Below, piece by piece: positions 63 through 59,703 of a stretch of DNA of 64,000 nt. Positions within the stretch are counted from its first letter, which is position 1; each line of letters starts with the position of its first letter. The DNA comes from an uncultured Bacteroidaceae bacterium (GTDB lineage: Bacteria; Bacteroidota; Bacteroidia; Bacteroidales; Bacteroidaceae): NCBI GenBank assembly GCA_944321635.1, contig CALULY010000001.1, positions 1-64,000 of the forward strand. Direction: 5' to 3'. The position numbers were made by a program, and so were the translations under genes. The notes beneath the pieces were generated by a model. The model was not told the DNA's origin, did not search any database, and was given only the letters and a program-made list of their open reading frames with translations.

Positions 63-173
63 ATGTATCCCGATGCGTCGGCAAAGGTATGCTTTTCTTT
101 GATTACTGCAAAACAATGAAGTCGATTTTTTAACAAATGTCCTGCAAACGGAATTCGGTTTATGAGGCAAAAT

Positions 174-305
174 CATTGTATGACAACGCTGGAAACATTG
201 TATGGTAATCCCTAAAACATTGTATGCTGTCGGCAGAAACATTCTATGTTTTTGCCGCTTGCATTTGATGTTTTTGGCCGTAACATACTATGCTTTCGTC
301 CCCCG
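174..305. repeat. 22-bp phased array, CATnnnATG family, copy 1 (6 units)
   Basis: Units start with a CATnnnATG 9-mer at 174, 196, 218, 240, 262 and 284, each step exactly 22 bp. The 9-mers are CATTGTATG three times, then CATTCTATG, CATTTGATG and CATACTATG. The other 13 bp vary, but usually hold an A or T run next to the 9-mer. The array fills most of the gap between tRNA-His and the 3' end of the next gene. Nothing else is seen in 63-385. Confidence 0.85.
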
Positions 306-2699: not shown

Positions 2700-2934
2700 G
2701 GGTGTAGATTTGGGCATGGGGAATAAAAATGACAAAAATTTATATCCAATAAATCATAAAATATATTCTATTTTCTATGCTGATAGAGTGCTAAGTTACA
2801 TTATATTACTTTTAGAATATAAAATCTTACGAAACGAACAACGCATCATTTCATGATTGTCTGATTTGTATCAAAGAGTTTCGTACCAGTTTCCTGTTGT
2901 CGTTGCCAAAATCTCCGCATAATTTCCCCTTTTG

Positions 2935-3044
2935 CATCGTATGCAACCGCCAAAATCATTGTATGTTTTGACCGTTTGCATACGATGTTTTTGGCAAAAG
3001 CATACAATGTTCCGGGCAAAAACATCGTATGCCGTCACGCTTGG
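2935..3044. repeat. 22-bp phased array, CATnnnATG family, copy 2 (5 units)
   Basis: Units start at 2935, 2957, 2979, 3001 and 3023 with CATCGTATG, CATTGTATG, CATACGATG, CATACAATG and CATCGTATG. All four steps are exactly 22 bp. Units 2-4 carry T or A runs between the 9-mers. CATACGATG is the reverse complement of CATCGTATG, so units occur in both orientations. The array ends about 70 bp before the -33 box of the glycogen synthase promoter. The AT-rich stretch 2700-2930 shows no gene. Confidence 0.85.
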
Positions 3045-8650: not shown

Positions 8651-8889
8651 CAGGGCAGGTCAAGTGGAAAGCATGGTGTGGCCAGGCATAAACTTCACCG
8701 ACCCGCCGGGAAAAGTTGATTGTCCCCTAACATAAAGTATATTCAGAACTTTGGTTTATATATTCAGAAGTTTTGTTTATATAAACAGAAGTTTTGTTTT
8801 TACTTTATGTCAGGGGATGATGAACTTTATGCTCAGGGCAAGTGGACTTTTCCCGGCAGGCAATCGCTTTTTGCCTCTGTTGCCATCGT
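8651..8889. repeat. composite phased array, family 1 copy A (three 21-bp core units)
   Basis: The core consists of three 21-bp units at 8740-8760, 8761-8781 and 8782-8802, each centred on CAGAACTTTGG or CAGAAGTTTTG. A 16-bp inverted repeat brackets it: CCCCTAACATAAAGTA (8724-8739) and TACTTTATGTCAGGGG (8801-8816), with one mismatch. Outside lie 22-bp units. On the left they end in a CATAAAGT-like motif at 8694, 8716 and 8738. On the right they begin with ACTTTATG-like motifs at 8802, 8824 and 8846. A second pair, GCCGGGAAAAGT and ACTTTTCCCGGC, is a perfect 12-bp inverted repeat. The array lies in the 8374-9031 gap, where no gene is seen. Confidence 0.88.
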
Positions 8890-24828: not shown

Positions 24829-24986
24829 GTCCTTTTAAAATTAGCGTGACACCTTGCCAAGTCAAACTTATCAACAGTCCTGCTGGCAGGCACCGCCGCA
24901 AGTCCGGCAGGCGTGGCAGCGAGACCGCGCCAAGGTGATGTGGGGCAACGGCGACAAGCGTGGCGGGGTTATGCCAAAGAGGTCTT

Positions 24987-25052
24987 TTGTTAGTGCCAGT
25001 AACAAAGATTGTTAGTCGCACTAACAAAGGTTGTTATTGCTTTTAACAAAGC
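24987..25052. repeat. 22-bp phased palindromic array, TTGTTA family (3 units)
   Basis: Units at 24987-25008, 25009-25030 and 25031-25052 each begin TTGTTA and end AACAAAG plus one base. Unit 2 is a near-perfect palindrome: TTGTTAGT and ACTAACAA around CGC. Unit 1 has one mismatch in the same arms, and unit 3 has TTGTTA and TAACAA. Both steps are exactly 22 bp. The array lies in the 24830-25172 gap between the aminotransferase promoter and the oxidoreductase terminator. No gene is seen there. Confidence 0.88.
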
Positions 25053-25101
25053 ATCTCCCGGCCGTGGTTCTTGGCGGTGGGGCAGGGACATTCCAAGCCG
25101 C

Positions 25102-28673: not shown

Positions 28674-28933
28674 AATGTGATGCCGGGCATAAAATCACAT
28701 GAGGTCTGGCATAAAAACCACTTAGGTCGGACATAAAGTTCATTTCCTACTGACACAAAGTAAAAACAAAAGTTCTGAATATATAAACAGAACTTTTGTT
28801 TATATAAACAGAAGTTTTGAATATATAAACAAAACTTCTGAATATACTTTATGTACGGGGGAAACGAAGTTTATGCCAGACCTGATGGGACTTTACGCCC
28901 CGCTTGGCAGGGGTTTGTACCTGACTTCGCATG
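28674..28933. repeat. composite phased array, family 1 copy B (four 21-bp core units)
   Basis: The core has four 21-bp units, 28763-28783, 28784-28804, 28805-28825 and 28826-28846, centred on CAAAAGTTCTG, CAGAACTTTTG, CAGAAGTTTTG and CAAAACTTCTG. The junction of units 2 and 3 is the palindrome TGTTTATATAAACA. To the left, 22-bp units end in CATAAAAT, CATAAAAA, CATAAAGT and CACAAAGT at 28695, 28717, 28739 and 28761. To the right, units begin ACTTTATG, AGTTTATG and ACTTTACG at 28846, 28868 and 28890. The array lies between two divergent genes. No gene is seen in 28500-29060. Confidence 0.88.
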
Positions 28934-35348: not shown

Positions 35349-36440
35349 ATGACAAACTGCAAGAACCAATTGATTGCCCTTGCCTGCGCCGCAGTGCTGG
35401 CAGGGTGCGGTGGCAAGACGTCCTACACCATCAACGGCAGCGTCGAGGGTGCGGCCGATGGCGACAAGGTCTATATGTTGCAAGTCACTGACGGTCGTCC
35501 CGACACGCTCGCCACGGCGGCTGTCAAGGGCGGTGCTTTCACATTCGAGGGCGAAGCCACAGAGACAGCCCTGCGTTATGTCGCCTATGGCAAAGGCGGC
35601 ACGCGCTACTTCACCGAGGTGTTCCTCCAACCTGGGGAGATAGAGGTCGTCCTCGCCCCCGAGAGCTACGCCAAGGGGACGGCGGACAACGACCTGTTGC
35701 TCGCATTCAACAGCGGCCTGCGTAGTTGGCAGCAGGAGATGTCGGCTTTCTACAACGACCTGGCATCGTGTGACGACGAGCAGACGCGCAAGGAACTTGC
35801 CGCCCGGATGCAGGCAAAGGAGCAGGAGTTCCCCAATGTCGTGGCAGACTTCGTTACCGCCAATGCCGGGACGGCGGCGGGAATGTTCGTCTTCGGTCAG
35901 GGGATGGACGGGGGGATAATGCCATTCGCGCTGCTCGATTCCCTCTATTCGGCCCTGACTGACAGCATCAAGGCGACGGCTCTCGGCAAGGAAGTGTCGG
36001 CGCGCTTTGACCACGTGGCAGCGACCATGCCCGGCCGCCCCGTCAAGGACTTTGAGATGGAGGGGATGGATGGCAAGACCTACCGTTTTGCCGAGATTGT
36101 CAAGGGCGCGGAGTACACCCTTGTCGATTTCTGGGCTTCATGGTGCCCGCCGTGCATGAGGGCGGTGCCAGAGCTCAAGCAGCTGGTCAAGGACTGCAAG
36201 GGCAGGAGCTTCCAGGTGGTAGGCATATCCCTTGACTCCAAGCGTCCCGACTGGGAGGCCGCTGTCAAGGACAAGGGGCTCGACTGGCTGCAACTGTCCG
36301 ACCTGCGCGGCTGGGAGTGCGAGGCGGCGCGCCTCTACAATGTGACGAGCATACCGACCGTCATGCTCGTGGACAGCACTGGAACGATCGTCACCAAGGG
36401 GCATTCGCTCGACGAAGTGCGTGCCGCGATGGGCGAGTGA
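35349..36440 (+). CDS. TlpA-like thiol-disulfide oxidoreductase lipoprotein with DUF4369-like domain
   Basis: A lipobox (VLAGC) anchors it to a membrane. Residues about 25-120 (YTINGSVEGAADGDKVYMLQV) resemble the DUF4369 domain that precedes thioredoxin domains in many Bacteroidetes proteins. The thioredoxin fold follows, with the CXXC active site WASWCPPC (Cys266, Cys269), and VVGISLDSKRPDWEAAV and YNVTSIPTVMLVD with the cis-proline. It should reduce or exchange disulfides of envelope proteins. The start at 35349 places the signal peptide at the N-terminus. Confidence 0.9.
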   Translation: MTNCKNQLIALACAAVLAGCGGKTSYTINGSVEGAADGDKVYMLQVTDGRPDTLATAAVKGGAFTFEGEATETALRYVAYGKGGTRYFTEVFLQPGEIEVVLAPESYAKGTADNDLLLAFNSGLRSWQQEMSAFYNDLASCDDEQTRKELAARMQAKEQEFPNVVADFVTANAGTAAGMFVFGQGMDGGIMPFALLDSLYSALTDSIKATALGKEVSARFDHVAATMPGRPVKDFEMEGMDGKTYRFAEIVKGAEYTLVDFWASWCPPCMRAVPELKQLVKDCKGRSFQVVGISLDSKRPDWEAAVKDKGLDWLQLSDLRGWECEAARLYNVTSIPTVMLVDSTGTIVTKGHSLDEVRAAMGE

Positions 36441-36581: not shown

Positions 36582-36885
36582 GCGGTCGTGTCGGGCGTAA
36601 ACCTCGATTAGGCCTGGCCTGGACTTCGTTCCCTCGGTGCATAAAGTTCATTGTCCCCTGACATAAAGTAAAAACAAAAGTTCTGTTTATATATTCAGAA
36701 CTTTTGTTTATATAAACAGAACTTTTGAATATATAAACAAAACTTCTGAATGAACTTTATGCACCGAGGAAACGAACTTTAGGTCAGACCCAATGCAATT
36801 TTTCCCGGCGGGCAAGTTGACTTTGTGTCTGGCCTGGAGTGGATTTAAGTCAGGCATCGCTGGTCTTGCCCCTCATTGCAGTCAT
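36582..36885. repeat. composite phased array, family 1 copy C (four 21-bp core units, 18-bp perfect arms)
   Basis: Core units at 36671-36691, 36692-36712, 36713-36733 and 36734-36754 are centred on CAAAAGTTCTG, CAGAACTTTTG, CAGAACTTTTG and CAAAACTTCTG. The middle junction is GTTTATATAAAC, flanked by GTTTATATATTC and its reverse complement. Outer arms CCTCGGTGCATAAAGTTC (36632-36649) and GAACTTTATGCACCGAGG (36752-36769) are perfect 18-bp inverted repeats. 22-bp units continue on both sides: left ends at 36603, 36625, 36647 and 36669, right starts at 36754, 36776, 36798, 36820, 36842 and 36864. No gene is seen in 36520-37160. Confidence 0.9.
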
Positions 36886-37387: not shown

Positions 37388-37448
37388 CGTCACCACATCG
37401 TGCGCCGGGGGCGAGCCTTGGCGCGTGGCGTGGTGACGCTGGCGAGTG
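37388..37448 (+). other. strong hairpin in the nuo leader
   Basis: CGTCACCAC (37388-37396) pairs perfectly with GTGGTGACG (37440-37448), and inside it GCGCC pairs with GGCGC. It ends 24 bases before the nuoA start and lacks a T run, so it is not a simple terminator. The rest of the leader (37164-37387) shows only a doubtful 83-codon frame from 37185. Confidence 0.6.
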
Positions 37449-47665: not shown

Positions 47666-47945
47666 CCACAGCGTCAGACGGAAAGTTCCATAGGGTCTGG
47701 CCTAAACTTCATTTCCCTCGTACATAAAGTATATTCAAAAGTTTTGTTTATATATTCAGAACTTTTGTTTATATAAACAGAACTTTTGTTTATTCATTCA
47801 AAAGTTTTGTTTTTACTTTATGTGCGGGGAAATGAACTTTATGCACCGGGCAGAGGGATTTTAGGTCTGACCTGATGGCACTTTTCCCTGCTGGCGGTCG
47901 GGCTTCATGTCCTGCATCACCGGGTTTCCATCCCGGCATTGCGTC
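47666..47945. repeat. composite phased array, family 1 copy D (four 21-bp core units)
   Basis: Core units at 47732-47752, 47753-47773, 47774-47794 and 47795-47815 are centred on CAAAAGTTTTG, CAGAACTTTTG, CAGAACTTTTG and CAAAAGTTTTG, so the core is symmetric about 47773. Arms: CATTTCCCTCGTACATAAAG on the left and CTTTATGTGCGGGGAAATG on the right. Left 22-bp units end at 47708 and 47730, the one before at 47686. Right units begin ACTTTATG at 47815, ACTTTATG at 47836, then 47858, 47880, 47902 and 47924. The array lies between convergent nuoN and nadC. No gene is seen in 47410-48050. Confidence 0.9.
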
Positions 47946-59464: not shown

Positions 59465-59548
59465 AGTTTGTTTTTAACCTGAATCTATGTATTTTTAGGT
59501 TACGTCTATATGTTTTTAGTTTGCAATTATATATTTTTAGTCTAAAAA
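59465..59548. repeat. 21-bp phased T-tract array (4 units)
   Basis: TTTTTA recurs at 59471, 59492, 59513 and 59534, exactly 21 bp apart. Between the tracts the sequence varies (ACCTGAATC, GGTTACGTC, GTTTGCAAT, GTCTAAAAA). A T/A run every two helical turns should bend DNA. The array lies between the divergent guaA and rpsA promoters. Confidence 0.8.
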
Positions 59549-59703
59549 TAAACTTTTCTTCCACCCATGGCAACTCGTTGCCGGATGTTTGTGGCGGCAC
59601 ACGGGATGCCGCTTTGCCGCCATCAGTCGCCACAGGTGGCCGGCGCGGGTCTTCCCGTCTTGAGAAAAAAACATATAAACGGTTGTGGCAATAGATTTTG
59701 TGC

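Follow-up and report, generated by a model that had tools for sequence, protein, structure and literature searches.

What kind of element is built from short units that repeat at two helical turns and converge on a common centre, and why would a chromosome carry it? The question is raised by an intergenic composite palindrome, henceforth referred to as copy C, at positions 36582–36885 of a 64,000-nucleotide stretch of DNA from an uncultured Bacteroidaceae bacterium (the window; contig CALULY010000001.1, positions 1 to 64,000). Copy C lies between a gene encoding a thioredoxin-like/DUF4369 protein (stop at 36440) and nuoA/nuoB, which begin at 37446 (Pfam). Each of its core units opens with the near-palindromic 11-mer CARAASTTYTG and closes with 10 bp of AT-rich spacer, while the arm units on both sides consist of an 11-bp GC-rich word and a AAAGTTCATT-like spacer. 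Coordinates of copy C and of the other arrays in the window are provided in Table 1.

Table 1 Copy C and the further arrays located in the window. F1 to F4 denote the array families described in the text.
Feature	Position	Strand	Description
F2 array	164–301	.	22-bp units of AAACATTGTATG plus a variable half
F2 array	2930–3035	.	22-bp units whose orientation changes within the array
F1 element	8677–8851	.	Window copy with a short core
F3 array	24970–25066	.	Three 22-bp dyads, TTGTTAGTNNNACTAACAA
F1 element	28700–28903	.	Window copy
Copy C left arm	36588–36674	+	Four inward-pointing 22-bp units; words at 36588–36598, 36610–36620, 36632–36642 and 36654–36664, each followed by the spacer
18-bp inverted repeat, left copy	36632–36649	+	Left word 2 and the start of its spacer
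Copy C core	36675–36758	.	Four 21-bp units in exact 21-bp steps, starting at 36675, 36696, 36717 and 36738
18-bp inverted repeat, right copy	36752–36769	-	Right word 1 and spacer
Copy C right arm	36759–36846	-	About four inward-pointing 22-bp units; first word at 36759–36769
F1 element	47686–47878	.	Window copy
F4 array	59469–59551	.	21-bp AT-rich units, TTTTTAGSYTAAAA with an ATATAT-type spacer

The first-pass annotation of this DNA had described four 21-bp core units flanked by 22-bp units pointing inward, and this design was confirmed both by the exact steps of the core and by autocorrelation. Against 2000 dinucleotide shuffles, copy C gave 116 matches at lag 21 (71.1 ± 7.2 expected, z = 6.2, P < 0.0005) and 107 at lag 22 (70.9 ± 7.1 expected, z = 5.1, P < 0.0005), with no signal at lags 10, 11 and 20. 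When the copy-bearing intergenic regions were pooled, z reached ~ 40 at both lags. The 18-bp inverted repeat is exact, one arm being the reverse complement of the other (CCTCGGTGCATAAAGTTC), and it pairs left word 2 with right word 1. In a search with the covariance models of Rfam 15, the one match was to a truncated tRNA at the edge of the window (positions 1–61). Neither terminator-like sites (a GC-rich stem followed by a T run) nor sigma-70-type promoter-like sites were found at or around copy C, the latter in a scan that does not cover Bacteroidetes promoters.

Copy C proved to be one member of a family, family 1 (F1), that recurs throughout the source genome (G000), of whose 2.32-Mb draft 1.957 Mb (84%) was read. 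Of 137 F1 candidates 40 were scored, and the family comprises 101 loci in the sequence read, none of which falls inside a gene according to our own codon-model gene caller; family calls are likewise our own. The core is almost identical from copy to copy, and exactly four core units are present in 81 of the 100 copies that could be parsed. The arms are symmetric, with conservation dropping from ~ 25 bits in the units beside the core to almost background levels once unit 5–6 is reached on both sides, and they average about four units each. Arm words are drawn from a small vocabulary (CCCCCGTACAT, CCTCCTGACAT, GGGTCTGACAT, AGGTCWGRCMT, GCCCGGTGCAT, ACTCGCCGGGA and CCTCCTAATGA) and are self-complementary above letter shuffles, most clearly words 2 and 3. 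Within an element, the words of the left arm are uncorrelated with those of the right, as judged across the 100 copies (same class in 11 versus 16.8 expected). Therefore, the loss of one unit from the right arm, proposed earlier for copy C, and pairing between the arms are not general features of the family, and the 18-bp inverted repeat represents reuse of a single word. F1 elements occupy convergent, divergent and tandem gaps in 25, 26 and 46 cases, respectively.

Phased arrays are not restricted to F1. Among the 691 intergenic regions of the source genome that lack F1, 94 loci showed strong local periodicity at lag 22 and 31 did so at lag 21, compared with at most three at any other lag from 15 to 39. 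Most of these loci belong to three further families, and in the stretches read the counts were 101 for F1, 68 for F2, 45 for F3 and 36 for F4. F2 arrays consist of 22-bp units of AAACATTGTATG plus a variable half and switch orientation internally; F3 arrays consist of 22-bp dyads of the form TTGTAAGTGCGACTTACAAAG, usually three in number. Neither has any sequence in common with F1. F4 arrays consist of 21-bp AT-rich dyads whose flanks resemble the F1 outer units (AAAGT/ACTTT). Gene context differed between families: F3 was found in 14 convergent and 4 divergent gaps and F4 in 1 convergent and 19 divergent gaps, relative to a background of 74 convergent, 143 divergent and 288 tandem gaps of at least 150 bp. 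Because the preferences of F3 and F4 are opposite, the four families may not all share one role. A different intergenic repeat of short period (lag 18 or 27, GGGCTAATTGGNCCAATT-like 9-bp steps) was also observed at three sites of the same genome (C5:109.2 kb, C11:17.3 kb and C16:4.4 kb).

The arrays are spread roughly evenly along the chromosome. Arrays within 1 kb of each other were merged into single sites, and the null was random placement in intergenic regions no shorter than 150 bp. The resulting 254 sites are separated by a median gap of 6.0 kb, with a histogram peak at 5–6 kb and a coefficient of variation (CV) of 0.60, versus 0.81 ± 0.05 for random placement. Gaps shorter than 2 kb numbered 1 (24 expected) and those shorter than 4 kb numbered 30 (76 expected). 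The exclusion acts within and between families: no F1–F1 pair lies closer than 4.4 kb, where 13–18 would be expected, and within the same distance F1–F2, F1–F3 and F1–F4 pairs were observed 7, 4 and 5 times versus 26.8, 19.9 and 15.2 expected. F2–F2 and F2–F3 pairs show no short-range depletion, and in six cases arrays of different families are no more than 400 bp apart. When convergent, divergent and tandem gaps were analysed separately, array occupancy was 0–4% with another array within 2 kb and 59–76% with one at 4–6 kb. Since this pattern holds inside each gene-orientation class, operon borders do not account for the spacing. Along contigs the families follow one another in random order, and their contig densities are only weakly anticorrelated. 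Zoning of families along the chromosome was considered and rejected (113 adjacent same-class pairs versus 115–117 expected).

Related genomes were examined for similar arrays, and these were found beginning with the sister species (G003), in which the F1 core and architecture are the same. Both refuting outcomes named in the first-pass annotation, no excess at lags 21/22 over shuffled sequence and no similar arrays in relatives, were thus checked and did not occur. Most orthologous loci in the sister species carry the element, with its words mostly exchanged for a different set (TCTCGGYGAGT, ACTCGCCGAGA); two loci retain almost identical arms. Family type was kept at 14 of 17 alignable F1 sites, 5 of 7 F2 sites, 4 of 5 F3 sites and 3 of 3 F4 sites. 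In the sister species an F2 array was also noted about 1.6 kb away in a neighbouring intergenic region (G000 C2:109.4 kb; L122 9277), as if the site had been replaced nearby. The match between the first left and first right words is high in this species (z = 6.7), a value confounded by a mix of sub-families. A further genome, G001, retains the outer units around a different core word, CGCAASTTGCG.

A DNA query with F1 reached only the same genus and one weak match elsewhere in the order. The lag-21 dyad pattern pointed to other genera, in which arrays were confirmed by direct scans. Genome G121 (g14), from another genus of Bacteroidaceae, carries several kinds of 21–23-bp composite palindromes (for example AATCGGAGTCCCCGACATCGG; sites L208–L214), with 40 scored places versus 0–2 in its congeners. 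Genome G006 (g3) carries 21-bp CAAAGCCCGCCGCCTTTTTTT arrays (sites L215–L221) of a type that is common to G115 and absent from G035 and G081. Yet another family, in about a dozen copies, was found in G009 (L222) and is absent from two congeners; as this genome is a single contig, the array class is not an assembly artefact. The words of the arrays in other genera are entirely different from those of F1 and are species-specific or nearly so. The eight gaps in G121 range from 6.9 to 15.5 kb, giving a spacing of ~ 11 kb and a CV of 0.25, where uniform placement would give 0.79 (P = 0.0007), a small sample judged against this simpler null. A viral origin of the element was rejected, the F1 core having no match in viral contigs.

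A step of 21 or 22 bp corresponds to about two helical turns, and the earlier suggestion that every unit presents the same DNA face gained support from the recurrence of these steps in ~ 250 arrays of several families and from the phase dependence of predicted F1 curvature. Curvature was calculated as the ratio of end-to-end to contour length with the Bolshoy wedge model. Predicted ratios were 0.557 for F1 (0.839 shuffled), 0.521 for the sister-species elements (0.832 shuffled), 0.676 for those of G001 (0.875 shuffled, n = 6) and 0.705 for F4 (0.931 shuffled). In silico insertion of 2–8 random bases per 22 bp abolished the predicted curvature of F1 (0.84–0.88), while insertion of 10–11 bases largely restored it (0.62–0.66). 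F2, F3 and the G121 arrays are predicted to have little or no curvature. Consequently, curvature as modelled here is not class-wide; the properties common to the class are phasing, dyads and spacing.

The statement in the first-pass annotation that no described element has this layout holds within the literature searched, in which only BrickBuilt and general REP papers dealt with arrays of even spacing or helical phase in Bacteroidales. BIMEs and BrickBuilt are the nearest relatives in design and differ in defining features. BIME/REP elements of enterobacteria, Pseudomonas and Stenotrophomonas (PMC2817692, PMC3733652) resemble the present arrays in being intergenic, species-specific mosaics of imperfect palindromes in alternating orientation with more than 100 copies, and they too have been proposed to act in chromosome organisation. 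In contrast to these, F1 has a strict 21/22-bp step, one symmetric centre and inward-pointing arms, and several unrelated families with mutual spacing exclusion occupy one genome. The RAYT transposase (PF01797) gave no match in the source genome (94% complete) or in four congeners, in a search that was positive for 22 of 41 genomes, and RAYT-driven REP was therefore rejected. The REP tags are not enriched within F1 elements relative to shuffles, CGTC occurring 95 times versus 89.6; GTAG is strongly depleted (27 versus 122.6). The element is thus BIME-like in outline and lacks two tested REP/BIME features, the RAYT transposase and the GTAG/CGTC tag.

BrickBuilt, a MITE of Porphyromonas gingivalis, consists of direct repeats set between a leader and a tail that differ from each other, and it carries IS5-type terminal repeats (PMC4596501). 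It belongs to the same order, Bacteroidales, and is likewise an intergenic minisatellite, whose 23-bp unit spans about two helical turns and is more variable in one half; about 19 copies are present. Unlike BrickBuilt, the arrays described here are palindromic about a centre at which the 21/22-bp units invert, and their ends decay without terminal repeats. The best matches to the IS5-type terminal repeat (GAGACCTTTGCA) within 300 bp of the 101 F1 copies were no better than those in shuffles. Gyrase offers a further comparison. BIME-2 binds gyrase (PMC2817692), and the E. coli gyrase motif, which spans 130 bp and has a GC period of 10.75 bp, is an earlier example of a long, symmetric site recognised via phased bending (PMC6379681). 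For BIME-1 the corresponding protein is IHF. As with strong gyrase sites, the arrays are long, symmetric, degenerate and chromosome-wide, with helically phased GC/AT alternation and predicted bending signals; they differ in their 21–22-bp period and in forming sequence families.

Three other readings were weighed. It is unlikely, in our estimate, that the arrays are non-autonomous mobile or gene-converting repeats of the BIME or MITE kind, spread by a putative transposase or recombinase. Under this explanation close pairs would be lost by recombination or barred by insertion immunity, with even spacing and word mosaics as by-products. It would account for about 100 copies in species-specific sequence sets, for cores almost identical between copies, and for words replaced at orthologous sites as if overwritten. 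It also gains from synteny: of 15 breaks between the sister species and the source genome (two of which are edges of the compared pieces), 11 fall at sister-species elements, for example at L112 9367–9503 and 3672–3804, and 9 have both source-genome ends beside F1 sites. These breaks may reflect rearrangement or recombination between elements, or they may be misjoins, since both drafts often break at such repeats, and the argument is not made to depend on them. The PF01797 result also weighs against mobility, as does the anatomy of the element: conservation peaks at the centre and decays towards the ends, and MITE-type terminal inverted repeats are absent. Around F1 ends, which could be placed only approximately, shared 8-mers were not in excess (6 versus 7.2 expected), and a search for clean empty sites with target duplications found none. 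Finally, exclusion operates between non-homologous families, which neither homologous recombination nor family-specific immunity predicts.

A role at the RNA level, in which long hairpins insulate transcription units, stop read-through in both directions or stabilise mRNA ends, appears quite improbable. Predicted RNA folding is much stronger than in shuffles (copy C, z = -11; means of -9.6 for F1, -5.1 for F3 and -4.5 for F4), as expected for palindromes, and the preference of F3 for gene 3′ sides agrees with such a role. However, F2 folds weakly (z = -1.8), F4 favours divergent regions, and copy C has no terminator-like site around it. Because arm words are unmatched left to right, arm pairing is not maintained in the source genome, which weakens the earlier proposal that transcripts fold into a long hairpin, and an arm–arm hairpin constraint was rejected there. 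A terminator role was likewise rejected, as neighbouring genes own terminators about as often as others (terminator-like hairpins at 52–62% of array-adjacent 3′ ends versus 49% of those without arrays). Passive minisatellite-like sequence arising from replication slippage, without function, would be compatible with a purely intergenic location, variable sequence and cores of more or fewer than four units in about one copy in five. The spacing and lag results already speak against this reading, which is very improbable: only lags 21 and 22 occur, phase is kept even though orientation flips at the centre, four core units predominate, and both site and family are conserved between species.

The best explanation, to which we assign a probability of roughly 0.4, is that a protein binds cooperatively to the arrays, or wraps their DNA, and that the nucleoprotein sites so formed punctuate the chromosome. 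Judged from sequence, F1–F4 arrays look like punctuation about every 6 kb, in what would be an undescribed mode of chromosome organisation. Phasing, copy number, intergenic location, symmetric outward decay and spacing exclusion across most family pairs are features of the sequence, as are conserved position and family type between species, word turnover and the predicted curvature of F1 and F4. As a class, the arrays are non-directional, symmetric, phased at two turns, intergenic, roughly evenly spaced, position-conserved and sequence-labile. It is tentatively proposed that the several families on one chromosome behave as interchangeable punctuation sites ~ 6 kb apart.

Mechanistically, near-palindromic dyads two helical turns apart make up the composite palindrome, on whose central units a dimeric protein, cooperative or DNA-wrapping (a nucleoid-associated protein, or else gyrase or another topoisomerase), may nucleate before spreading outward from the core along one DNA face. 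The resulting non-directional nucleoprotein structure could serve as a loop anchor or supercoil boundary, and spacing would be kept by selection if two nearby sites were redundant or harmful. The outward decay of the arms fits nucleation at the core, and the fast turnover of words argues that the protein either recognises geometry or co-evolves with the words. Speaking against punctuation are the lack of F2–F2 depletion at short range, the six close pairs of different families, curvature that is not class-wide, the opposite gene contexts of F3 and F4 and the special kind of reader that such word turnover would demand. The broader proposal, that across the family each species has several unrelated, rapidly replaced kinds of two-turn-phased palindrome that share one set of roughly evenly spaced sites, and that a protein reading their geometry instead of a fixed sequence delimits topological or loop domains of ~ 6–11 kb there, is rather doubtful.

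Bacterial chromosomes have long been inferred to contain topological domains of ~ 10 kb, and we know of no general sequence determinant for them. Even the mobile-repeat explanation would leave the exclusion between non-homologous families to be explained. If punctuation is the true reading, sites that are even across unrelated families, fixed in place and divergent in sequence would provide a handle on domain determinants in a major gut lineage.
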